Source: Bolinopsis microptera
Lineage: Eukaryota > Ctenophora > Tentaculata > Lobata > Bolinopsidae
NCBI RefSeq assembly: GCF_026151205.1
Contig: NC_087075.1
Coordinates: 7,332,858 to 7,396,857, forward strand
Direction of reading: 5' to 3'
Length of the DNA: 64,000 nucleotides
This document shows positions 2 to 60,999 of this stretch, piece after piece. Position 1 is the first letter of the stretch. Every line of letters starts with the position of its first letter. The notes under the pieces are model-generated. The model had not been told where the DNA came from, did no database searches, and saw nothing but the letters and a program-made list of their open reading frames with translations. Both the position numbers and the translations under genes were made by a program.

Positions 2-1639
2 TTTAGTGAAGAAGGGACAACACAAGGTGATCCACCTGCTATGGGATTTTATGCATGTGGTACAATACCATTGATTGAGGCAGGAAACATTGAGAGAAAA
101 GTGACTCAGATCTGGTATGCTGATGACTCTGCTGCTGGGGGAAAACTGGAAGAAATGAGGAAATGGTGGGATAACCTCTGCATTAAAGGACCACTTTTTG
201 GTTACAACCCTAAATCTTCCAAGACATGGGTGATAGTCAAGCCTGAGCACGAAGAGAAGGCAAGAAACTTGTTCCCAGATGTCAATGTGACAAGTATTGG
301 TCGACGATATCTGGGCAGCTTTATCGGAACTGATGAAGGAAAAGGGGCTTTCATCGAGGAAAAAGTTCAAGAATGGTGTCGTGATCTTAAACAATTAAGT
401 GATATAGCATCAAGAGAACCTCAAATAGCATACAGTGCATACATGTATGGGCTTAGTAAAAGATGGAACTATGTGTGCAGAACTACCCCAGGAGTTGCAG
501 ATAGGCTCACTCCTCTGGAACAAGTAACACGCGATGAGTTTATCCCAGCTATCATCAACAGGCTGTTTAGCTGCACTGATGAACTAAGGAACATAATGGC
601 TCTACCACCAAGATATGGAGGATTGGGTATACCAGTTATGATGGACATGGCAGACCGAGAGTACAAATTCTCATGTAGAGCCACAAAACCCCTTAAAGAA
701 GCTATTCTCAAGCAGGTAGACAACTACACAGAGGACTGGAGAGTAAGCAAAGGAGTGAAAACTGAGATAACAACTGAACGAAATCTCTTCTATCAACAAA
801 AACAAGCGGAAATACGCCAGGAGCTCGAGTCAACACCACTGGCAAAGTTGATGTTCCAACTAGCTGCTGAGAAAGGGGCAAGTGCTTGGTTAACAGCACT
901 ACCTTTAAAAGAGTATGGATATCTGATGAACAAACAACAGTTCTCAGACGCAATAGCACTCAGATATAACCTAAACTTAAAGGACAGCCCTAAGACATGT
1001 ACGTGTGGCCAAAAGTACTCAGCAAACCATGCGCTCATCTGCAAACTCGGTGGATATGTGTCACTGCGGCACAACTCGCTGAGAGACACCTTTGCTGAAC
1101 TAATGAGAACTGTGAAATGCAAGGATGTGCAGACTGAGCCAGTTCTTCTTCCAGTTGATGGTCTGAAGTTGCCTAAGGGAACAGTACTTGGAGACCAAGC
1201 TAGGCTGGACATTTCTGCAAGATCGATTTGGAATGCTTCAGAGAGGGCATATTTTGATGTAAGGGTATTTCATGCCCCAGCCCCCTCCAATGCAAGCAAA
1301 TCGATCCCAGCAATGTACCAGTCCCATGAAAATGAGAAAAAGCGATGTTACAACGCAAGGGTTCTTGAAGTGGAGAAAGGAAGCTTCACACCTTTAGTGT
1401 TCTCGACTTCTGGTGGAATGGGTAGTGAGGCTGAAAGACTGGTAAAAAAGCTGGCCAGTAAGATGGAGTACCACACTGGCCAGAGGTACTCGGATGCTAT
1501 AGGTTACATCAGAAAGCGCCTTCGCTTTGAAATCCTAAGAACAACAGTGATTTCTCTCCGTGGAGACAGAGGTGCAAGAAAAAACATTGTTAATATAAAC
1601 AGTCTAGATCTTAACTTGGAGCCACAAGGCCAAGGGTAA
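2..1639 (+). CDS. Retroelement ORF, 3' part: reverse transcriptase with C-terminal zinc-finger/nuclease-like domain (5' end cut by window edge)
   Basis: The frame is open from the left edge to a TAA at 1637-1639, so this is the C-terminal ~545 residues of a longer protein. Seen, numbering from the ATG at 41: just upstream a GTTQGDP-type RT motif, then YADD (26-29) as the polymerase catalytic motif, a thumb-like region with LPPRYGGLGIP near 188-198, a Cys/His cluster (CTCG...HALIC, about 319-334) and a conserved tail with RLDI (about 388-391), FDVRV (405-409) and EKGSFTPLVFS (about 445-455). Known: such a Cys/His cluster followed by a PD-(D/E)XK-like fold occurs in retroelements with restriction-like endonucleases, and similar ORFs are common in aquatic invertebrate genomes. 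Inference: a retrotransposon polyprotein whose catalytic motifs look intact; clade not assigned. The frame has no internal stop or shift, so the copy may be young. Confidence 0.85.
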   Translation, partial: FSEEGTTQGDPPAMGFYACGTIPLIEAGNIERKVTQIWYADDSAAGGKLEEMRKWWDNLCIKGPLFGYNPKSSKTWVIVKPEHEEKARNLFPDVNVTSIGRRYLGSFIGTDEGKGAFIEEKVQEWCRDLKQLSDIASREPQIAYSAYMYGLSKRWNYVCRTTPGVADRLTPLEQVTRDEFIPAIINRLFSCTDELRNIMALPPRYGGLGIPVMMDMADREYKFSCRATKPLKEAILKQVDNYTEDWRVSKGVKTEITTERNLFYQQKQAEIRQELESTPLAKLMFQLAAEKGASAWLTALPLKEYGYLMNKQQFSDAIALRYNLNLKDSPKTCTCGQKYSANHALICKLGGYVSLRHNSLRDTFAELMRTVKCKDVQTEPVLLPVDGLKLPKGTVLGDQARLDISARSIWNASERAYFDVRVFHAPAPSNASKSIPAMYQSHENEKKRCYNARVLEVEKGSFTPLVFSTSGGMGSEAERLVKKLASKMEYHTGQRYSDAIGYIRKRLRFEILRTTVISLRGDRGARKNIVNINSLDLNLEPQGQG

Positions 1640-1933: not shown

Positions 1934-2640
1934 TTTGATCTTTTTACCCTTTTCGGATTCTTAATTTTGTAACGGCTTGAGTTTCACTAACCTTTTAACA
2001 TTTTTTAGGTTCAATGTCACTGGAGATGACTACAATCGAAATATATTTGGCAAGAATCTGAATGTTTTCAGTGTTGAAAGTTTAGTTTCTTAAATCCTAG
2101 AGTAGTCATTCGTGTCCCTGATACTTGGGTTAATTCTAACTCTCCTGATTTTTAATTATGTTGCTGCTACTTGCAACTTAAGCGCGGCACCGCGCCGAAA
2201 AGCTTGCGGTGCTGCGCCTAAACTCTAAATATTGTTAAGGAAAACGAAGATTCGCAAAATAATTTACTAGCTGACCTAGTGAGATATTACAATTAATAAT
2301 TATAGCCGTTCCGGATCCATACGTAGGTTAGTACATAAACCAAAAGCAGTTTGCAAAAGGAGCCAGTTGCCTGTAAGAGCTTTACTAGCACCCTATTTAC
2401 CACATTTGGTGCACACACGTAATATGCCTTATCACTTATATTAAACCAGCCTAACACAAAAATCACCACGAGTGGGTGGATTGATTCCCAGGACATTTAT
2501 CAGCATCCAGCACTAATATAATATGAAGTTTATTATATAAATGTTGTTTATTATATAAATGTTGTATTTATTATTTTATTATTATTATCGAATTTAAAAT
2601 TTGGCATATGGAACGTCATACATATATATAACATATTTAT
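1934..2640. other. Non-coding AT-rich stretch
   Basis: No coding potential recognised. It contains the GC-rich hairpin at 2183-2218 listed separately and is otherwise A+T-rich. Whether it belongs to the left-edge retroelement or to the upstream part of the LRP gene cannot be told. Confidence 0.5.
2183..2218. repeat. GC-rich imperfect hairpin
   Basis: The arms GCGGCACCGC and GCGGTGCTGC are inverted copies with one mismatch, separated by a ~16-bp spacer with an AAGCTT core. The GC content contrasts sharply with the AT-rich flanks. No gene is linked to it. Confidence 0.6.
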
Positions 2641-3049
2641 ATTTATTCTCTGGTTAACAGATTTCAAATGTTTAATTAATTTGTAGTATGACAGTAAGGT
2701 ATATAAGAAGTTATTTAATTTTGCTTGGGCTCTTATATTGACTATTGAGGTTTAATGATGATATGGAATTTGAATTCTATATAAATTTACACTATGTGGT
2801 TGGGGCATTTTGCATAGTAAATATGGTTACTACTCCTATATATCATATTATTTGATTGGTATTCGATTTCTGATTATTTCTCTAGGAATATGATTATTAT
2901 ATCTCAATTTGGCTTTAGGTAGGGTGCCCCGCTAAAAGAACTGGATTCTTCCAGGAAGCATCCCGTGCACAGACCTTGGTCTACATATATATTAAATTAT
3001 TAACCATTCATTCTGTATGTGCACGAAAATTTATTTCAATCAATCAATA
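2641..3049. repeat. 409-bp direct repeat, copy 1
   Basis: Copy 1 of a 409-bp sequence repeated at 3263-3671. Reading side by side I see one substitution (GGGCTCTTA here, GGGCTATTA in copy 2) and no indels. Both copies end in TTTCAATCAATCAAT, resembling the short tandem tail of some non-LTR retroelements. Two insertions of one truncated element, or a segmental duplication, would both fit. Confidence 0.92.
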
Positions 3050-3262
3050 TAAGTTGGTCGATATCATATATATCAGTTAATTATTTAAAATAATCCATTC
3101 AGGTATTTGGTATCGGTACTATTTTATTTAAGTTGAACTCAATATGACATTAGTTGATTTAAATTCAAATATAAAATTGCTAGAAGTACAGACCAGGTTT
3201 TACATAACGTAGCGACAGGAATACATTGCATCTAAATTATTTCACTTGCATTAGGTTTAAAA

Positions 3263-3671
3263 ATTTATTCTCTGGTTAACAGATTTCAAATGTTTAATTA
3301 ATTTGTAGTATGACAGTAAGGTATATAAGAAGTTATTTAATTTTGCTTGGGCTATTATATTGACTATTGAGGTTTAATGATGATATGGAATTTGAATTCT
3401 ATATAAATTTACACTATGTGGTTGGGGCATTTTGCATAGTAAATATGGTTACTACTCCTATATATCATATTATTTGATTGGTATTCGATTTCTGATTATT
3501 TCTCTAGGAATATGATTATTATATCTCAATTTGGCTTTAGGTAGGGTGCCCCGCTAAAAGAACTGGATTCTTCCAGGAAGCATCCCGTGCACAGACCTTG
3601 GTCTACATATATATTAAATTATTAACCATTCATTCTGTATGTGCACGAAAATTTATTTCAATCAATCAATA
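3263..3671. repeat. 409-bp direct repeat, copy 2
   Basis: Second copy of the 2641-3049 unit in the same orientation, 213 bp downstream. Identity is close to complete, implying very recent duplication. The flanks after the CAATCAAT tail differ between the copies, so the repeat boundary is sharp. Confidence 0.92.
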
Positions 3672-5063
3672 CGGGGACACGGGAGGTCAATGCACCATAA
3701 GGACAGCAGTCGAGTGGACAGTTGACGAGAACTTGATTGAAAATGAGTCTCTTGTTCATTGGAAAGAAATGATTCATATTGAATCATGTGACTGAATAAA
3801 TATTTTGCACTAGCTCCAACCCTTTACTTGACCTCCCCGAAATTTTCTCCACTAACTTTACCCATACCAAACCAGGCCCTTGACACTACCACTGAAGGAC
3901 CTCTGTTCTGAAAAATTAAGACATCACATTATCGGTGGCGTAACGAAGGGCCCCACTGCGCAGGTGGGCGTCATCTTAGGGGGGGCGCCAAATCGTTGTT
4001 TGAATGTGGGACAATTTAAAAAAACTTAACTACAGTACTAGCAAAACTGCGCGTCTTGCTCTAGAAACACACTTTTTAAAAGAATTTTGTGCATGATCTT
4101 CTAAAATCATCTAATTTGTCCAATTTTAGGGAGGGGCACCAAAGAGGGAGGGGGCGCCAACAGGGGCCGGCGCTTTTTCAGCAGGAGGGGGGGGGGGGCC
4201 GGGGGGGGGGGGGGGGGGTACTCTCAACCACCACTTTGGCATATAGTTGTTGCACCTTTCACAAACAAGAGCCACTTTGTTAAACTTGCTGTGAGGTGTA
4301 TCAGCTTCATGGCTCGGGGGTCTTCCTTTTAACAGAATCTGGGTCAGAAAAGTTAATTGCAACTAAATTTCTCCACAATGAAAATGACATTACTTGAATA
4401 AATTCGTTGTTGGAATCGGCAAACTTGCAATCAGTCTTGATAAGAATTGAGTTTTTAATGCTTTTCTGTACCTGTGCTATTGTTTGTTTCATTGCTCTAA
4501 GGGACCTGGTCTTCGTTCTTATTTTATTCCTTAGGGGTCGTTCATGTATAACTTAATGAATATTTTAGCACTCCTTACCTCCCCCATCCGTAATCAACTG
4601 TAATCAAGACCCAATCATCCTCCTGACAGCAATTTTACATAAACAAGGCCTGAATTTTTCCTGAAAATTCCTAGAATTTCTGGTTGATATCCACCCAAGC
4701 ACCTTCTAAACTACTTACTTTAGCCAGATATCTGATCAATTCCTAAATTTATTAGTATCAAACACCCCCACCCCAGCCTGGCCTCGTTATCAATCGAAAT
4801 CATGTCACTATTTTCGTTTCACAGTTTTAACAGTATTATCTCAGTAAAGGTATACATTAGGCCTTGAAAGGGTGTGTTTACAAAGGATCTTGAATATTAT
4901 CTGAGCATTCTTTGTTACACATTGAAATCTATAAGTAACATTGGAGTACACTGAATAATTTAGGGAATTTAATGAAATGATGAAATATTATTACAAACAA
5001 CAATTGGATTAGTGTTTTATTATGATTTTTACATAACATCTCTTCAATATTGATTCATTTTAG
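3672..5063. other. Non-coding stretch with a degenerate G-rich repeat
   Basis: No exon recognised. At about 3938-4180 there is a G-rich patch with two AGGG..GGCGCCAA-like segments, which looks like the remains of a transposon with GC-rich termini, ending at the poly-G run. From 4220 to 5063 I see nothing beyond AT-rich DNA. The 5' exons of the LRP gene are expected upstream, but none could be found here. Confidence 0.5.
4187..4218. repeat. Poly-G tract
   Basis: Twelve G, then CC, then eighteen G, giving a strand-asymmetric G run able to form a G-quadruplex. It is also a place where assembly length is unreliable. Confidence 0.95.
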
Positions 5064-5090
5064 GTTTTTAAATGTGAAATGAATGATTGT
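5064..5090 (+). CDS. Tentative 27-bp LRP exon: middle of an LDLa repeat
   Basis: After a TTTTAG acceptor the reading VFKCEMNDC supplies the F-x-C and third cysteine that an LDLa repeat needs before the exon starting at 5330. Joined in phase 0 to VTHDQWCDG it gives the usual six residues between the third and fourth cysteines. An in-frame TAG lies immediately upstream and another downstream, so if this is an exon it must be this short. The donor (GTTTAT) is weak. The first cysteine would have to come from an exon not found. Confidence 0.35.
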
Positions 5091-5329
5091 GTTTATATTG
5101 CTACTGGTTAGAGCTGGGTATCCCTACAATCTCTACTGTGATAATTCGGTAAGACACTTTGGATTCAAGATTCAATTTGTTCACTCTGTGAACATTATAA
5201 CTGTTGGTAATTTTTTGGAAGTAATTTGTGCATTAGATGTTATTATTATTTTGAGGGTATTTCTAATATTAACATGTAGATTGTTTACTAAATTTGCCTC
5301 TTAATCATTTCATGTCTTTTCAGGATCAG

Positions 5330-6104
5330 GTGACCCACGATCAATGGTGTGACGGTTCATACGATTGTGCTGATCGCAGTGACGAGAAGTCTCTGTGCTG
5401 TGTTGCAGGCAAGCACAGGGTCGATGGAGAATGTGAGGATATAGATGAATGCTCAAGAGCTGGTTCTCTTGTGTGCTCCCAACATTGCCACAACACTGAT
5501 GGCTCCTTTGGGTGTTCCTGTGACCCGGGATTCAGTCTGAATCAAAAGCCCCATATCCCCGATGAGAGGGAAACGTATTGTAAAGCATTGGGAGATGATC
5601 CAGTATTCTTAACTTCAATAGACAATAAAATTATGAGAACTTCTGATCTTCAAAGCTTTGATTTGGTATCAATGGTAGGGGTTGAAGATTCCCATCATAT
5701 ATATGATTTTGATTATGATTATCAGAGCAACCTATTATTTTGGTGTTCTGGTGATACTCAAGACTTGCAGAGTGCTATGCACAAAAACCTATGGAAGGCG
5801 AGTTATGACAATTCACAGCTGATAGAAGCAGCTAAGATTGCAGATGGTATAGACTGTGTATCAATTGCAGTTGATTGGATCAACAAGAAAGTTTATTGGG
5901 TAACTGCAAACAGTGGCCAACTTGTTGCTTCAAATTATGATGGAACAAATCAAGCCACTTTGTTGTGGAGGAATGTCGGCTGGAATTTGAGGGCCGTGGC
6001 CGTTTCTCCTAAATCAGGCTACATTTTCTGGTCTAACTGTGGTGCTGACCCTCACATAGGACGTGCTAATATGGATGGATCACATCCAACGTTCTTAATA
6101 AAAG
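5330..6104 (+). CDS. LRP exon: LDLa end, half EGF, EGF-CA, propeller blades 1-3
   Basis: The largest exon (775 bp). WCDGSYDCADRSDEKSLC completes an LDLa repeat with the calcium-cage acidic residues. CVAGKHRVDGEC follows, which looks like only the last two cysteines of an EGF. Next comes a calcium-binding EGF (DIDECS...NTDGSFGCSC). Then propeller blades begin: NLLFW, the IAVDW/VYW pair and the GYIFWSNCG/NMDGS pair. The start was set at the second AG of CAGGATCAG because it restores normal LDLa spacing; using the first AG (start 5324) adds two residues, Asp-Gln. The donor is AAAAG|GTCAGG, leaving phase 1. Part of the span was open in a single frame, which supports the reading. Confidence 0.95.
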
Positions 6105-6686
6105 GTCAGGCTTCATGTTATTGATGAATGAAAAAAGTTTATTTCAGGAATTTATCCTTGAGACCCATTAATCGGTAATACGTTTCCATCATTAGCCGAA
6201 ATATTGGACTGATCTTTTCTTGGCATTAATCTGACCCAACTCATTCATAAATAGATAAATTATGACTGTGAAGTGGGATTCGTGATTTGGATTAGTTTGT
6301 GAAGCTCCTTTTAGAAGCTTCAAATTATCTGCAAATGAAATCAACAACAAAATTTTGAATCTTATGCGGCTGCAATAATTTAATTTTGATCAATGACTTA
6401 ATCTGACTTATTCTATAACTGTCCCGATAGTCCTGCCCTCCATTCAACAATCGTTTAACGTGACATATTACTTGCTAAAATGGAATTTAATGGAGAAGTC
6501 CTGTTCAGATCTGTTAAATTCCTGCAACTTTTGCCCTCATGAGATGTCGTCCAAGAAGAGATGTTGCTTAGCTTACTTTAATAAGACTCGCCCTCACACA
6601 CCCATCTTTTCAACGATATTAAACTAAAACACTAATAACAAGATATTAAACTAAAACACTAATAATAACATACGATTATCCTCCAG

Positions 6687-16765: not shown

Positions 16766-17201
16766 GTCTAGTAACACCTAGTAACACCTAGTAACATGAC
16801 ACCTAGTAACATCTAGAAGTAACACCTAGTCATAACACCCAGTAACACGTAGTAACACCTAGTAGTAACACCTAGTAACACCTAGTAACTCCTAGTAACA
16901 CCTAGTAGTAACGCTTAGTAACACCTAGTAGTAACACCCAGTAACACCTAGTAACTCCTAGTAACATCTAGTAGTAACGCTTAGTAACACATAGTAACAC
17001 CTAGTAACACCTAGTAGTAACTCCTAGTAACACCTAGTAGTAACACCTAGTAACACCTAGTAACACCTAGTAACATCTAGTAGTAACGCTTAGTAACACA
17101 TAGTAACACCTAGTAACACCTAGTAGTAACTCCTAGTAACACCTAGTAGTAACACCTAGTAACACCTAGTAACACCTAGTAACATCTAATAGTAACACCT
17201 A
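16766..17201. repeat. 10/13-bp minisatellite (CACCTAGTAA)n
   Basis: About 40 units of CACCTAGTAA mixed with the 13-bp variant CACCTAGTAGTAA. A higher-order block of about 120 bp, containing AACGCTTAGTAACACATAG, is repeated. A short offshoot of the same array lies at 17525-17570. Confidence 0.95.
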
Positions 17202-17481
17202 CTGATTATCTTCCACATCGACCATATTGTCATTGAAATGAAAACCTTTTTAACCCCGTCACCCGTGCGAAGATCAGTAGACCATCAAGTGGGCCATTAT
17301 AAACACATCAATTGTTACCCTTTCTCCCGTCCTGCCAGCATGTAATAACTGTGTATGTATTGTTAAATGTGAACACTGAACATCAGAACTGAGAACATGC
17401 TATAAAGTTATCGGGTTCAGATAATACTGACCCGGGTTAAAGTGGAGGGGTTTATCCTGGGGTCAATAAATCTGGTAATTT

Positions 17482-17612
17482 AACAAACTTGTTGAGGGGT
17501 GAGCTGCTGTGTGATGGAGATGTGAGTAACACCTAGTGACACCTAGTAACACCTAGTAACACCTAGTAACAGACTTGTTCAGGGGTGAGCTGCTGTGTGA
17601 TGGAGATCTGAG
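17482..17612. repeat. 45-bp direct repeat around a minisatellite offshoot
   Basis: ACTTGTTGAGGGGTGAGCTG... at 17482-17525 and ACTTGTTCAGGGGTGAGCTG... at 17569-17612 flank four units of the CACCTAGTAA array. Confidence 0.88.
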
Positions 17613-44115: not shown

Positions 44116-46674
44116 GTAAGTTTTATGTCACGTGACTTGAATATAATAGTATAATGTTTATTATTGTTACTTGTGTATAATTAAAAACTTAGAGAATAAA
44201 TGACATGACGTCATGTTACGTCACGTACTCGTTATCTATCATGTTGTTTATCATGTTACGTTCTATTATTTATCACGTTACGTCACGTTAAGTTTACTGG
44301 TGTGTCACGACGATACGCCGTCCCATTAAATTCTCGTGATTCTCCGACTCCCATTCCCACAATTACTTCAGAAAAAGAAAAAATTCTTTGGAAAACAAAT
44401 CCGACTAATCGTGGTTACTATATATTCCATTCTGACTCAAAATACCAACATATTATTGCATTTCAATAAAAACTAGCTGAACTAGGATCTTTAACAATGT
44501 ATCATAATATGTTTGGCACCCTAAAATTGTTTGTAAATTTGATTTCTGATCAAATTTAGTAAACAAACGAATTAAAATTTCGCAAGCATTAAAAGCCTAA
44601 ATTTCATGATAATAATATGTAACGCATGTCACATAATTACATTATTCAACATAAATGTAGGTTGTAGAGTAGAATAATTGAACAGTAATTTCTTGTTTTA
44701 AATTGGTACGGATTGGTCATACGTGTCACACAGCGACTGATCCTAAATATTTTACCGTAACCTTCTGCTTGTTTATGTTACTTGGACAATCAATTGGGTA
44801 TAGGTTTATATTTAATTATGATTTTGCTACATGTTATAATAACACAGTTTGATAAGTCTCCGTTTGCCCTATTTCCCACGATTGTTATCAACTCACCGGC
44901 CTCTCTTTTATCAAATCTATTGCTCGATATAACACTGGTAACTAACGTATGCGATATTCTCATTATATTTTAACATAATTAGAGAAGTTTTATTAGGTTC
45001 TAGTTACTTAAGACATGAAGTTGAACGTATGAAATTATGAACCTGTGGGAAATATTCCCCCGCCGTCTAGGCATTCTTAGGCTTATCTGGCGATACTGAT
45101 GGTCATCTTGATTTATGTTGCAAAAACAAATTATATGTGAATTCGGAAGAAAAGTCCGGTTGATGGAAGCGCCACGGTTGTTACCCTGATTCATTAATTA
45201 CCATACTGGCGTGCACGTTGCGACTTGTTGGTAACATCTTACTGTCATTTCAACCAATAGCATAACAGTGTTAAATTACGACTATTACAGTTTTCCGGGA
45301 CATTTAAGGTACAAGCCCAGAAGAGGCTTATCACAATATTGCAAGTTTCTGAGGAAAACCTTTCGTTTTAATATTTTCCAGAACTCGTCTTCACTTTACA
45401 TCCACCCGTCTCTCACCACCCCCAATATTCTGATGTTTACAAACACTAAGACGGAAATCCTGGCAATATATTATATAACCCTCATTAAAAATTTAGGGCA
45501 CACAGCATGTTTACCTGTTAAAAGTACTGTAGGGCTCATGTTTATAATAATAAGGTATCAAATAAGGTAATTAATTAGAAGACGTGTATCACGTATGGTG
45601 TAGCACGTGGGCGTGAAACTCTCTGTGATTGGTTCACAAAATATCACGTGATGTATGATTGGTTGGCATGGGAGATCAAGATCAACCGGTGACGATCTCT
45701 GGCAGATAAAGTACTCATCACCTAAAGTTGGTTTCTAAAGGTCACCTCACTGTTCCACACGTGTTGTAAAGGTTATGAAATCGTGGACACGTGATATAAA
45801 TGTTATCGCACGTGGGCGAGCACGTAGGCGGTGGGGGAGCACGTGATATGATGATATCATAATAGTACCATTGTTATTATAAAATAAGCTGCTGAGTCTC
45901 TCCCAGACATCTTGTCTGCTGCTGTTAAATTCAGTGCTGTTAAATTTTCACCTGAGATAGTGAGATCGCTCAAATTACATTTTCTTCTCGTTTTTTTATA
46001 CGGTACATTGTTTTTACGGTACATTGTTTTTTGTGAAATGTGAACCATATTTTATTTGTCTTGCCACGTGACAGTGATTCAGGGTTTGCATTGGTCAATT
46101 CTGGAAGCTTATTGGTTAATCATCACAAGTTACCCATATCTACAGAACTTTATAGCGTTGGGGAGTGGGGAGACAAAATATATATTATATATTTATTATT
46201 ATATAACCGTAAAATAGTTCAACGATATAAAACTCGTCGTCAAATTATTAAATGTTTTATGTAAAGTGTAAGTATTGATAGTTTCTAATGTGAATTTTGA
46301 TAGTTTTAATTTAATTAACACAATTCCAAAATATAAGTATCTGTTTAATATGAGGAACGGTAGAAATGTCGATAAGTGATTTATCTATTAGTATTTACCT
46401 ATAATGGAGGACCTATCACGTATTAATTATACAACCATATATTTTGTAGAAAAGGTACATGTCACGTACACCTTGTCTCCACAAAGAAACTAATTGCATG
46501 ATCCCCTGCTCACCACGTACACACGTACATTGCATTGTACAGTCCTCTAATCTGTTTCAGTTGACAACACCTTGTCAATTTTCATGTGTTTTATATCCCG
46601 TTCAGTTTCATCGTTAAAACTTGTTCAACAAGTTAACTTGTTGTTGCGATGTTACTCGGTAAGTTTAACTGGGG
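44116..46674. other. LRP intron, proximal part
   Basis: AT-rich DNA without a recognised exon. CACGTG/CACGTGAT motifs are dense at 45600-45850. Open frames of 60-100 codons (for example 45268-45570) show no motif. Confidence 0.5.
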
Positions 46675-48141
46675 AACATGACTAGGGGTGGGCACGGATA
46701 GCAATATTTTTGGGTGATGTCATGAATTTTTAAACGGCCCTGTTTTTTGGGTAAAGGGACATCCAAAATGAAAAAATAACTTGGTTTGGGGTCAAAAAAG
46801 CCCAAAATAAATATTTCCCGCCCCGTTTTCGGTTAGCGGGAGGGTCATTTTTGACGTTTTTGACTAAAATTGGCTTTATTTAATTCATTTTCACCTTTTA
46901 CACCTCATTGTTACCCATGATTGTGAATCATTATTGACAAACCAGGTAGGGTGAATGATTTCAGCCATCTAAAAATTTTCTGAAGATCCCCAGGGTGACC
47001 GTATCCATGGAAACGGGTCGTTTTGAAAAAAAATTAAGCGAAATCAGCCAAAATGTTTGTTTTTACCCCTTTTTGCCACTCTAAGACTTTTAACATGGCC
47101 AAAAGTATCCAGAAAGACCATTATTGTACATTGTAACTTGTATATCAACTATGATAGGTATAAAAACATGATGTTAGGTGTTTTAGTGGTATTTTTGGGC
47201 CTTAGCAACGCCTAGCAACGGGGCGTTTTAGGCATTTTAAAGGTTAATACATGTCATTTTAATATCTTACACTCTATTGTTACTAATGAATGTTGATTAT
47301 TATTAACATACCAGGTAGGGTTGATGATTTCAAGCTTCCAGAGCTCATCTGGAGGCATATTGGGTGCCCGTAACTATGGAAACTCGTCTTTTTACGAAAA
47401 ATTGAGATTTCAGTGAAAATTAGGGTTTTTTATAACTTTATGAATTATGATCCATAAATATTATACTAGTTATCCTTTATAAACCCTATGACAGTTGTGT
47501 ATTGGGAGATAAAATGGTAACTAATGTCTAACACTTCAGGGAGATAAATTTTCCCACTATTTAGGCCCCTAGCAACCCATAGCAACGACGATTTACATGC
47601 AAAAAAAAGCATAAAATACCACTATTTGACCCAAAACTGCTGAAAATTGACCTGGGTCATGGTAACAACGGTTTAAAACAGTAAAGTGACTACAATTAAA
47701 CTATTGATGTTAGGGTTCCTCACTATGTAGGCCCCTAGCAACCCATAGCAACACCTAGTTACGTGAGTCTTGGTCGTACCTTCAATACCGATTGTCTGTA
47801 AGGTATGAGTGCCTTTCCTAACTTGCCAAATCCTGGCAAATCCAGTAACGTGTAGATCCTTTAACAGAACTCATGAAAGTTATGGTTGCAATTGAACTAT
47901 TGATGTTAGGGTTCCTCACTATGTAGGGCATAGGCCCATAGCAACCAATAGCAGCACCTAGTTACGTGACACGAGTAAAAACTAGAACGTCAAATTTTCA
48001 ACAATTGTTCAATTTTATGTTACAATATCAAATAAACTATTTTAGAACTTGACTTTAACAATTTTAATTGCTTTCAATCGAAATTTAAAATTAAAAGTCT
48101 TAACTTTTGACCATTTTTGAACATCGTCATGGTTAACAAAA

Positions 48142-48357
48142 TCAAATATGACAAAATGGACCGTATTCATTTGTGAGACCTCCAGTCTTGGTCGTACCTT
48201 CAATACTGATTGTCTCTGTAAGGTCTGGGTGCCTTTCCAAGCTGGCCAAATCCTGGCAAATCCAGTAACGTGTAGATCCTTTAACATAACTCATGAAAGT
48301 TATGGTTGCAGAATCCCCATTCACACTGAGGACCTCCCTTGGGTAATGTATCCTCAA
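48142..48357 (-). pseudogene. Relic ORF tail in left arm of palindromic element
   Basis: Minus-strand frame YPREVLSVNGDSATITFM, followed by KGSTRYWICQDLASLERHPD and LTETISI, is the inverted counterpart of the + strand relic at 48732-49172. Relative to that copy two bases are missing just before the TACCCAAGG segment, shifting the frame, but this arm retains residues beyond the point where the other copy stops. The pattern YPxEV..V.GD...I.FM.....W resembles a tail found in many transposon-linked uncharacterised proteins. Confidence 0.55.
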
Positions 48358-48731
48358 ACAGCCCTATTACACAGTTGTTCTTCTTAGGAGGCGAACTCTC
48401 ATCAGTATTACCAAACTGAACTTGATCTGGATTACCATGACCAATAGAATGGGGCTGTAAGGGTTCTAATTGCTCTTCAACAACTCTGGGGCTTTTCTGA
48501 TACCGGTTTAGCTAGCCAATTGTTTAAACAAGATCTTGTAGAACGTGTGAAGCTTTACATTTTGTAATAACTTCCACCACCTTGGTTTCTTCACACAGCA
48601 AGTCAGCTTCCTGCTGGAACACACTCTTGAGTGACTGCTTCTGTTCCCCTTCAAATTTGAATGTCTTAAAATGTAACTTACAAACATCGACCTCGTAAGG
48701 ATGGTCTTCTGATCGAATTGATACAGCCAGT

Positions 48732-49172
48732 ATGACTGGAGGAAAGGAGGGCACGAACGAAAATCAAGCGATGTCAAATCCTTTGGGTAAGTTAATAGGT
48801 CATGATATAGGCCAGGAAGGATATGAAGTAGACGATCTGGGGGCTGCTATCATTGGCTATCAGGGTAAAAGTATTGCCCCAGTAAGTGTAGAGGATCTCC
48901 CAGTTACCAAGTCAAGCCCCAGAGTTGTTGAAGAGCAGTTAGAACCCTTACAGCCCCATTCTATTGGTCATAGTTATCCAGATCAAGTTTAGTGTGGTGA
49001 AACTGATGAGAGTTCGCCTCCTAAGAAAAACAACTGTGTAATAGGGCTGTTTGAGGATACATTTTACCCAAGGGAGGTCCTCAGTGTGAATGGGGATTCT
49101 GCAACCATAACTTTCATGAGTTCTGTTAAAGGATCTACACGTTACTGGATTTGCCAGGATTTGGCAAGTTAG
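48732..49172 (+). pseudogene. Broken ORF across centre and right arm of palindromic element
   Basis: From the ATG at 48732 the frame is open for 86 codons (start MTGGKEGTNENQAMSNP) to a TAG at 48990-48992, then continues in the same frame through CGETDESSPPKKNNCVIGLF, EDTFYPREVLSVNGDSATI, TFM and RYWICQDLAS to a second TAG at 49170-49172. The second part has the layout V..LFED.FYP.EV..V.GD...I.FM, seen at the C-terminus of many uncharacterised transposon-associated proteins. So the element probably once carried a longer gene of which this is the 3' remnant, disabled by the in-frame stop. Function unknown. Confidence 0.55.
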
Positions 49173-50883
49173 GAAAGGCACTCATACCTTACAGACAATC
49201 GGTATTGATATGAAGGTACGACCAAGACTCACGTAACTAGGTGTTGCTGTGGGTTGCTAGGGGCCTACATAGTGAGGAACCCTAACATCAATAGTTTAAT
49301 TGTAATCACTTTACTGTTTTAAACCGTTGTTACCATGACCCAGGTCAATTTTCAGCAGTTTTGGGTCAAATAGTGGTATTTTATGCCTTATTTTGCATGT
49401 AAATCGTCGTTGCTATGGGTTGCTAGGGGCCTAAATAGTGGGAAAACTTATCTCCCTGAAGTGTTAGACATTAGTTACCATTTTATCTCCCAATACACAA
49501 CTGTCATAGGGTTTATAAAGGATAACTAGTATAATATTTATGGATAAAGTTATAAAAAACCCTAATTTTCACTGAAATCTCAATTTTTCGTAAAAAAGAC
49601 GAGTTTCCATGGTTACGGGCACCCAATATGCTCTGGAAGCTTGAAATCATCAACCCTACCTGGTATGTTAATAATAATCAACATTCATTAGTAACAATAG
49701 AGTGTAAGATATTAAAATGACATGTATTAACCTCTAAAATGCCTAAAACGCCCCGTTGCTAGGCGTTGCTAAGGCCCAAAAATACCACTAAAACACCTAA
49801 CATCATGTTTTTATACCTATTATAGTTGGCATACAAGTTACAATATACAATAATGGTCTTTCTGGTACTTTTAGCCATGTTAAAAGTCTTTGAATGGCAA
49901 AAAGGGGTAAAAACAAACATTTTGGCTGATTTCGCTTTTAAATGTTTTTCAAAACGACCCGTTTCCATGGATACGGGCACCCTGGGGATCTTCAGAAAAT
50001 TTTTAGATGGCTGAAATCATTCACCCTACCTGGTTTGTCAATAATGATTCACAATCATGGGTAACAATGAGGTGTAAAAGGTGAAAATGAATTAAATAAA
50101 GCCAATTTTAGTCAAAAACGTCAAAAATGACCCTCCCGCTAACCGAAAACGGGGCGGGAAATATTTATTTTGGGCTTTTTTGACTCCAAACCAAGTTATT
50201 TTTTCATTTTGGAGGTCCCTTTACCCAAAAAACAGGGCCGTTTAAAAATTAGGAAAATTTGCATTTTCGTGCCCACCCCTAACATGACTGTTTTTATTAT
50301 GATTAGTTTTTTACGTTCACGCTTTAATTGCTTTGATTAATTAACATGTTTATTTGAATTACGCAGTTTCAATCGCAAGGTAACCACAAGCGAACTAATC
50401 TTGATGTTACACGGTTATTATGATATAATAGCGTGTATTAAAATATTAATCGCGATATAAATCTTATCAAAAAGGAAATTTGTACGAGTTTTCGGCTTAA
50501 GCAGAGTGAAACGAATCCAATTGAGCTGGTTAGTGAAACTCTGCGGCAAAATTGAATCTAATCTGAAGATTATTTTCTTAGATCATTATTCTATATTTTA
50601 GTTTTCACCCTGATTCAAAGTCTCACAAACTGGAACATTTAGTCGTAGAATGTCCAATAATAAAATGGGGCGACTTTCTTTTCGTTTGTGGGGCAGATTG
50701 TCACGTTTGTTTTAGAATATCAAATTCTAAGAATTTTTCTGGTTTATATCATGACAACTCAGTTTATACTTTATAGCCCTATTATCGTACGGGTCCATAC
50801 TTCTCATCTAAGGATTAGGAAGAAGTGATTATATAGATTAGATTCCCCTTAATCGGAATAGTTTCCAGACTCTTGATGTGCTG

Positions 50884-59090: not shown

Positions 59091-59944
59091 AGGCGCATTT
59101 CCTTGATTTATTGGTATTTGGTCAACTTCATTGAAAGTTATAAGTTTGTTTGTTTGTTTGGGGATTGGTTTATTAGCCAGTCAATGTTAACGAATATAAT
59201 AACTTTATTGTCGTGAGAAATTGTCTGTCTTTGTGCAAGGTGTTGAATTTGAGATCATGTAATAGATTGATTCGGACTGGTACTAGTAAGGAACAAGTTG
59301 CGATTTGACTGTGAAGTCTCGGCCAGTGTTCAGAATTCATCCATCGGAAATATTAATTATCCCGTTAGGTATGCAAGTTAGTTCCAAGTTGGTACCAAAT
59401 GCCAACACCCAGCGCAATTTATAGTCTATAAGAGATAAAAGTGAGATAAAGTGTGTTTTATTATGAAATGTTTCGTTGCAGCCCAGCACTGAAGGGATAT
59501 TGCGACATGTCATTGGTTTACTTAGGTTGAGATAACACCTTATCTTAATTGAAATAACACCCAGTCGTGAAACTTATCGAGGACCAAGAATATGAAATAA
59601 GCAAATGAATGGATTTTTTAAATATAGCGAGTTATACGGGAATTTATTTCATCAAAAATTCAAATTATATCATGCCTTCTAAAATCGTATTCAAGTATTC
59701 AATTATGGAATTTCTTATCAGAAGACCTGATCCTGTCATGAATCTATAATATATAAGAGCCAGGATTCTATTACTAATAAAAGTTACAATTCCATGGGCT
59801 TCGATATCATTTTTAGGGAAATCCAAGTTATAGCAGCCGAATGACGCGACAATGTTCCCAGATCCCAGTTCATTAAATGAACAGCGGTTAACTGTAATTT
59901 TTCATTATATCGTAATTTTTCATTATATCGCATATAATCTTGAT

Positions 59945-60999
59945 CGCATATAATCTTGATGGTTATTGGTAATGAGATGTCATCTACCCTCTTAGTTAAT
60001 TCTGGTGTCCCCCAGGGCTCTATTCTTGGTCCCTTACTTTTTGTATTGTTTATCAATGATATTCCTCTTGGCCTTTCGGATAATACTGATATTGTTTTGT
60101 ATGCCGATGATACAAAAATCTGGCGTAAAATACATTCATCTTCTGATAATACTAATTTACAAATGGATATAGACTATCTCTCTGACTGGGCACTAAGAAA
60201 CAAAATGCGATTCCATCCAGCAAAATGTAAAGTGCTTATTGTTTCAGGAAAACCATCTTTATCTCCTCCATTCGCATATAATCTTGATGGCTCTCCTCTT
60301 GTGTATGTAGAGTTAGAAAAAGATCTTGGAGTCGATGTTACTCCTAAGCTAAGTTGGAATAGTCAGTGCGACAGAATTTATACTAAGGCCTGCCAACAAC
60401 TTGGTATGGTCAGAAGAGATGGCCATATTGTCATTGATCAGAAACGTCGCCGGGCGCTTTACCTCTCCCTGGTTCGTAGCCAATTCGAAAATTGTTCCAT
60501 AATCTGGCGCCCTTGTAATAAATCACTTAGTGATAAATTAGAAAGTCTCCAAAAGAGAGCTATTAAATGGATTCTGTCTGAAGAGGGCCGCAGTTATCCA
60601 CCTGAGCAATATGTCAAAAAGTGCAAGCTTGTCGACATTCTCCCTTTGTCTCAAAAGTTTGACTTGAATGATCTTATTTTTTTCCACAAAGTTCTTAACA
60701 ATTTAATTCCTGTATCGCTGCCTCACTATCTCTCTTTATATCAGGGCACTTCTCGACTAAGACGTTGCCACCTCGACAGTCTGTCTATTGTGTCATCAAT
60801 TTTACCTAAGTTAAGTCAGAATTCACACACCACATGTACCTCAAATAGCCCACTGGCAAAATCATTTTTCTACAGAACCCATATACTGTGGAATGGACTC
60901 CCTTTACAGGTAAGACAGATTGTGTCTACTAGTCTTTTCAAAGCTGAGGTCACTAAGCATCTATGGAAATGTTTATTGGATAGTGAAACAACAGTCTAG
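59945..60999 (+). CDS. 5'-truncated non-LTR retrotransposon (LINE) reverse transcriptase
   Basis: Open from about 59945 to TAG at 60997-60999. Numbering from the TTG codon at 59956: SGVPQGSILGPLLF (16-29) is the RT motif preceding the catalytic YADDTKIW (49-56). A thumb-like region with LGVDVTPKLSW follows, then the C-terminal region of jockey/CR1-type LINEs (RRALYLSLVRSQFENCSIIW; LQKRAIKWI; FFYRTHILWNGLP). The endonuclease and N-terminal RT are absent, the usual result of incomplete reverse transcription. No internal stop or shift, so recent. The exact clade (CR1 or Jockey-like) is uncertain. Confidence 0.93.

Follow-up and report, generated by a model that had tools for sequence, protein, structure and literature searches.

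The window analysed here, a stretch of 64,000 nucleotides from the ctenophore Bolinopsis microptera, carries a nearly palindromic element of 3,599 bp at positions 46683-50281 (positions are those of the window unless another locus is named). This element is very probably a non-autonomous foldback DNA transposon that moves by cut-and-paste, generates 7-bp target duplications and derives from a parent of the type found at a second genomic locus, L045, or from a sister of that type. The foldback architecture itself is of an already known kind: very long inverted repeats form most of the element, which is bordered by a target duplication, and its arms contain internal tandem repeats. Comparison across the genome supports a long-inverted-repeat DNA transposon family with real siblings; its copies show low divergence from each other, and a likely parent type resides in the same genome.

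Copies, termini and target duplications

The genome searched comprises 264.65 Mb in 232 contigs. A query with the left arm of the window copy returned 59 matches, with the best 40 of 75 candidates scored, so that the copy number is a lower bound; twenty sibling regions were examined after this search. Thirteen paired loci, the window included, have both ends with no more than one mismatch in the terminal 13-mer, and each has its own exact 7-bp target duplication. A fourteenth, L038, is not counted among them owing to its damaged left terminus (two changes) and its shifted flanks, CTCTAAT and CTCTAAA, which match only with a one-base shift. Thus, at least 14 two-ended copies lie at separate places, in line with the long-terminal-inverted-repeat (long-TIR) family that an earlier note on this DNA had suggested.

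The same note had set the limits of the element at 46675-50289, with exact ends and a perfect 9-bp target duplication. Both terminal 13-mers of the window copy and the 9-mer AACATGACT on both flanks are indeed exact, but the siblings correct the register. In all 13 paired loci AGGGG is preceded by T and CCCCT is followed by A, and the terminus is therefore the 14-bp TAGGGGTGGGCACG, found in the window at 46683-46696 (+) with its counterpart CGTGCCCACCCCTA at 50268-50281 (−). It is exact at both ends in 12 of the 13 paired copies, L031 having one mismatch. In this 14-bp register, the flanks match over exactly 7 bp in 13/13 fully paired copies and over 8-11 bp in 0/13. The window 9-mer is therefore the 7-bp duplication ACATGAC (46676-46682 and 50282-50288), lengthened by a chance A before it and T after it; on each side, one of these two extra bases is the element's own terminal base. 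The exact matches of the earlier note thus stand, whereas the true duplication is 7 bp long, the true termini are 14 bp long and the element is correspondingly shorter.

The genome contains 39 exact copies of the 14-mer terminus and none of its reversed control, an abundance that is not due to chance. Thirteen of the 39 exact ends are without a listed partner inside 10 kb and were left out of the copy counts. Direct evidence for the 7-bp duplication comes from L045, the joined flanks of which match two paralogous empty sites, L063 and L064, gaplessly at 315/320 bases each (5 mismatches) with TTATGAA present once, confirming the duplication for this copy. The repeat in which L045 is inserted is a dispersed one that contains an open frame; the insertion is missing from at least two of its copies (L063 and L064). 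The left flank of the window copy (240 bp) matches nothing in the genome but itself.

All 13 target duplications differ in sequence, and they follow the pattern nTnnnAn, with T at position 2 in 11/13 and A at position 6 in 13/13. Pooled, this symmetric pair is present in 24/26 cases (p = 2e-10 against local flank composition, A+T 0.64 over 7,618 bases); A at position 3 and T at position 5 are found in only 7/13 and 5/13. The pattern equals the Hermes target nTnnnnAn (PMC10368747) less one central base, and the Galileo 7-bp consensus GTANTAC likewise places T second and A sixth (PMC4168063). Agreeing with both, it does not decide between the hAT and P superfamilies: the hAT-type T second and A second-last are there, but in 7 bp rather than 8.

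Further loci are incomplete or rearranged. The single-ended L043, L044, L046, L047, L049 and L050 and the fragment L048 were inspected and give no duplication; the single end of L050 carries one mismatch. L043 and L044 share a 20-bp outer flank, as do L047 and L049 with one base differing, and these ends are therefore duplicated or nested in another repeat. L037 (8,983 bp), considered as a candidate autonomous element, was rejected because it is a palindromic copy split by a long interspersed nuclear element (LINE). This retrotransposon, of the type without long terminal repeats, occupies L037:2181-7248 in the centre of the copy; domains of a 2OG-Fe(II) oxygenase and a GDSL esterase are joined in its first frame, and the second encodes an endonuclease and a reverse transcriptase. 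In L034, L036, L039 and L041, a unit of ~196 bp is repeated two to four times in the B-side inner arm only; such one-arm repeats might give rise to satellite DNA in the way reported for Tetris.

Architecture of the window copy

Drawn on the forward strand, the window copy has its B end on the left. Next to the left 14-mer lies a B-type tip of 28 bp (46697-46724, +), present at this end only, and next to the right 14-mer an A-type tip of 17 bp (50251-50267, −), again at this end only; the two tips do not mirror one another. The left arm (46725-48494, +), most of which reproduces in inverted orientation the 3′ part of the L045 gene and the right end of that element, is separated from the right arm (48914-50250, −) by 419 bp (48495-48913). 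Repeat finding in the window revealed long arm blocks that are 95-100% complementary from 46725 inward, the innermost pair being 48345-48494/48914-49063 with 419 nucleotides between them. A BLAST alignment of the element against itself gave 95.7% identity for the outer arms over 1,174 columns, gaps included, and the two arms differ by 1.9% in substitutions over 908 columns, gaps extra. The description in the earlier note of a near-complete palindrome, all but ~419 bp of which is arm, is thus accurate. The arms are unequal: a partial duplication of ~420 bp in the stretch around 47766-48310, found in the left arm only, makes that arm about 430 bp longer than the right one. Both arms contain direct repeats that have diverged from each other and are spaced about 370 bp apart.

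These features, together with the sibling copies, make it almost inconceivable that the palindrome was created by misassembly or by foldback in long reads: foldback artefacts in such reads are known (PMC12870357), and an assembly inversion was the alternative offered in the earlier note, but 14 two-ended copies occupy separate sites, 13 with their own exact duplication, the tips are unmirrored, and the arms differ by about 2% plus gaps, with ~420 bp extra in one of them.

The 419-bp loop is a remnant of the transposase gene predicted at L045 and includes stretches corresponding to parent residues 774-819 and 948-1015 (48488-48840, −). Further remnants match residues of about 1105-1232, in pieces, in the left arm (48102-48493, −) and of about 1075-1199 at 48831-49190 (+).

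A predicted transposase gene at L045

L045 (C10:15412236-15418350) is 6,115 bp long, shares the 14-bp ends of the family and has inverted repeats of about 610 bp that are 95.7% identical. Its gene model comprises five exons with GT..AG borders and an uninterrupted reading frame of 1,232 amino acids. Exons 1, 3 and 5, the three that were searched (2 and 4 were not), are full-length at one genomic place only, L045; one of these searches scored the best 65 of 81 candidates. Broken fragments are found elsewhere: L051, which is 85% identical over 185 columns and has an internal stop, and L052, a deletion derivative. With its uninterrupted gene model, L045 is likely to be the autonomous parent of the palindromic copies or a sister of that parent.

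Inspecting the 1,232-residue protein by eye, we noted D512 (in DGTS), D581 (in SDLC), C608xxH611 and E898 (in ENFFG), with spacings of 69 between the two aspartates, 317 from the second aspartate to the glutamate and 27 from the second aspartate to the cysteine. A C/DxxH motif after the second aspartate marks the group of hAT, P, MuDR, Kolobok and Dada (PMC3706591), and the protein is accordingly a putative transposase of the CxxH type, with a candidate catalytic triad resembling DDE (two aspartates and a glutamate). Neither in pieces nor whole does it match any Pfam family at E-values up to 10, which covers the transposase domain of Mutator-like elements (MULE), the hAT and BED domains and the THAP and P-element transposase domains, and by sequence it matches no PDB chain at E-values up to 1. 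Zinc-finger patterns (C-x2-C or CxxC..H..C) are absent from the 1,232 residues. Among viral contigs, three stretches fit a pattern for relatives of this transposase, none of them confirmed. An uninterrupted transposase-like gene that goes unrecognised by Pfam may mark a gap in transposase classification.

Origin of the palindrome

The palindrome is a head-to-head inverted duplication of an L045-type 3′ gene end together with the right terminus, as judged from alignment of the two elements. Positions 43-2149 of the window element are an inverted copy of positions 6084-3926 of the L045 element, with internal deletions, and positions 2149-3599 are a direct copy of 4826-6115, giving the order B tip, inverted copy, direct copy. 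The two stretches meet with a 1-bp overlap at 48831, the presumed founder junction, where the inverted copy of L045 position 3926 adjoins the direct copy of 4826. A 121-bp query spanning this junction was found in 11 of the 12 palindromic copies tested, a set without L038; the junction is split by the LINE in L037 and trimmed in L042. Since it is common to 11 of 12 copies, the simplest reading is that the palindromic copies would all descend from a single founder.

Such a founder could have arisen when a copy that had been broken or excised was repaired. Synthesis would have started from the right end and joined the left terminus via the shared inverted repeat, yielding a palindrome that retains both end-specific tips; the full element's transposase would then have mobilised this product in trans, and this enzyme would need a tip of each type, A and B. 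A switch of template in the course of gap repair has been invoked for defective Galileo copies (PMC4168063) and for Pack-TIRs (PMC8277862), and by analogy we infer that it may have acted here. With a likely parent, a founder junction and a dozen derivatives in one genome, the origin of the palindrome becomes directly readable.

Alike arms and unlike tips

The distance between the A and B arms is 1.39% within elements and 1.79% in random pairings (12 elements). None of 20,000 permutations gave a distance as low as that within elements, and again none of 20,000 did so after removal of the three most alike elements. Had the arms evolved apart since the founder, the A-B distance would be independent of whether two arms share an element; the observed dependence contradicts this expectation, and the closer agreement within elements implies that arms exchange sequence. 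A difference in repeat units also favours homogenisation of the arms: L045 is without the same ~369-bp unit in both arms, and L043 keeps two units.

The tips remain different. One A tip and one B tip are present in 13/13 paired copies, and L038 agrees by eye; our typing of the ends accepts GATAGC or GATGGC, the latter being the reading in L037, L042 and L045. A stem-loop in the A tip is no better than in shuffled sequences (z 0.13). The family thus separates arms kept alike by conversion from tips that stay different, two features that usually go together, and the combination of alike arms with unlike tips makes the need of the transposase for unlike ends directly testable.

Several observations weigh against parts of this account. 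The palindrome tips share one founder and hence give no independent proof of such a need; their difference could reflect common descent, a reading that homogenisation just inside the tips makes less comfortable. L040 has neither the centre nor the junction, and L038 shows the terminus changes and the one-base flank shift described above. Identity between the palindromes and L045 in the mapped stretches is only 73-92%; L045 is therefore a parent type, and the element that actually gave rise to the palindromes may have been its sister. Finally, the catalytic role of the L045 protein is read from motifs found by eye, with no match in Pfam or by PDB sequence, and the L045 splice sites are predictions from sequence alone.

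Superfamily assignment

The assignment that we favour, tentatively, is a divergent hAT lineage with 7-bp duplications. The terminus TAGGG fits YARNG, the terminal motif of hAT elements, and the spacings of 69 and 317 are near those of the Hermes catalytic residues D180/D248/E572. Compared with a hAT frame of the same genome, the spacing from the second aspartate to the cysteine is 27 versus 29, and the glutamate motif ENFFGNL resembles ERSFSKL. The target pattern differs from that of Hermes by one base, Hermes too has dissimilar ends (PMC10368747), and fungal hAT7 families with 7-bp duplications have been described (PMC12730594); the typical hAT duplication is 8 bp, with 5, 6 or 7 bp in named subgroups. 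These likenesses are offset by the lack of any Pfam match, and hence of a hAT or BED domain, at E-values up to 10. PF05699 finds at least 150 loci in the genome (the best 150 of 365 candidates were scored), none of them at L045. An alignment to L053, the sole long-enough frame among ten hAT loci and the only one used, was no better than shuffles, 115/300 of which scored as high, and the same holds for two motif windows (202/1,000 and 143/1,000). In L053 the spacing from aspartate to glutamate is 356, against 317 here. Moreover, one paper assigns YARNG to the P superfamily.

A less probable alternative is that the lineage is an unnamed one. The 1,232-residue protein might then found a CxxH-type DDE superfamily of its own, characterised by TAGGGG ends, a 7-bp target of the form nTnnnAn and dependence on two tips that differ, in which conversion of the arms would reach up to, and never across, the last 31-42 bp that the transposase reads as left or right.

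A relative of the P superfamily, similar to Galileo, is unlikely. Its ENFFG motif resembles the glutamate motif of the P element, and the 7-bp duplications are within the 7-8 bp of P and Galileo. On the other hand, P elements have CA.. ends, whereas the ends here are TA..TA; the protein has no Pfam match, hence no THAP or P-element domain; and A at 3 and T at 5, which GTANTAC would require, are present in about half of the duplications or fewer. Galileo does share the 7-bp duplications with T at 2 and A at 6 (PMC4168063), as well as long TIRs that have expanded through tandem repeats of ~210 bp and through recruitment of internal sequence (PMC4168063, PMC3573991), and the paper mentioned above gives YARNG as the P consensus. 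The remaining likelihood falls to other known groups.

The Mutator-like foldback element with 9-bp duplications suggested in the earlier note is highly improbable: its long inverted repeats and the 9-bp match of the window copy fit, but Mutator and MULE duplications measure 9-11 bp and the siblings are without a 9-bp duplication, theirs being 7 bp in all 13 exact cases as well as at the L045 empty sites, and the partner protein matches no Pfam family. Siblings without a 9-bp duplication were the very outcome that the earlier note had named as a refutation.

Arm motifs and surroundings of the element

The GCAAC motifs that the earlier note had seen at several places in the arms do exist. Three exact TAGCAACNNNTAGCAAC pairs lie in the left arm at 47203, 47570 and 47736 (47203-47752, +), and TAGCAAC pairs recur in the right arm at 49243, with one mismatch, and at 49409 and 49755, both exact (49243-49771, −); all 5 exact TAGCAACNNNTAGCAAC matches of the window are inside the arms. 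With up to two mismatches allowed, the window contains 32 matches against 0.37 expected. The element accounts for 8 of these and a tandem array at 16769-17570 for 23, and the last one lies at 45217. Across the genome there are 60 occurrences of the 19-mer CCTAGCAACCCATAGCAAC, all of which, as judged from their positions, lie in family members (58 in the 14 two-ended copies and 2 in L043/L044). Tandem repeats in the Galileo arms are described as binding sites (PMC3573991), and by analogy the TAGCAAC pairs may be candidate protein-binding sites. Outside the element, an array with a period of 10 bp, TAGTAACACC, occupies 16769-17201 and 17544-17570 and resembles these pairs in form.

Elsewhere in the window, a frame at 5273-6121 (+) with calcium-binding EGF and LDL-receptor class B domains is probably an exon of a host gene. 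A reverse transcriptase domain is encoded at 59944-60996 (+), and the frame at 2-1636 (+) looks by eye like a reverse transcriptase (YADD), with no Pfam match at an E-value of 0.01. Minisatellites are many, with 80 tandem-repeat rows, some overlapping, in the 64 kb.

Comparison with known systems

In the partial literature covered, which does not include Repbase, none of the matches listed on 7-bp duplications, foldback arms or hAT subgroups describes a comparable element, and a text search with the terminal sequence listed, by title, no transposon paper. The family may be an undescribed one, as the earlier note suggested, its protein having no Pfam or PDB sequence match. Kyakuja (KDZ) was rejected as a candidate: it combines a 7-bp duplication with CA..TG ends and has no TIRs (PMC12730594), whereas the family here has TA..TA ends and long TIRs.

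Dada resembles the family in its 6-7 bp duplications, its intron-bearing gene, its C/DxxH motif and a spacing of 68 between the aspartates, against 69 here (PMC3706591). It differs in the spacing from the second aspartate to the glutamate, 176 versus 317, and in its two zinc fingers, of CCCC and CCHC type around the DDE core (PMC3706591), which are absent here. Dada-type insertion into a small-RNA gene was not seen in the 64-kb window, the one insertion site scanned, which gave no Rfam match and no tRNA.

The hAT7 families of Puccinia and Melampsora likewise have 7-bp duplications in a hAT setting (PMC12730594); they were recognised by transposase similarity, unlike the protein here. Hermes and other hAT elements differ in their 8-bp duplication and BED finger, and hAT TIRs are short, 10-25 bp (PMC3942097). 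Tetris of Drosophila virilis shares the foldback build and carries ~220-bp internal tandem repeats in its arms, but its duplications are 8-10 bp long and no autonomous partner was found (PMC4079207). Galileo of Drosophila is similar in its 7-bp duplications, in its long TIRs that are extended by tandem repeats and recruit internal sequence, and in its many two-TIR copies without a transposase (PMC4168063, PMC3573991). In contrast to Galileo, the element described here goes with a protein lacking a THAP or P domain, consists almost entirely of arm, and has arms that come from the 3′ end of a gene.

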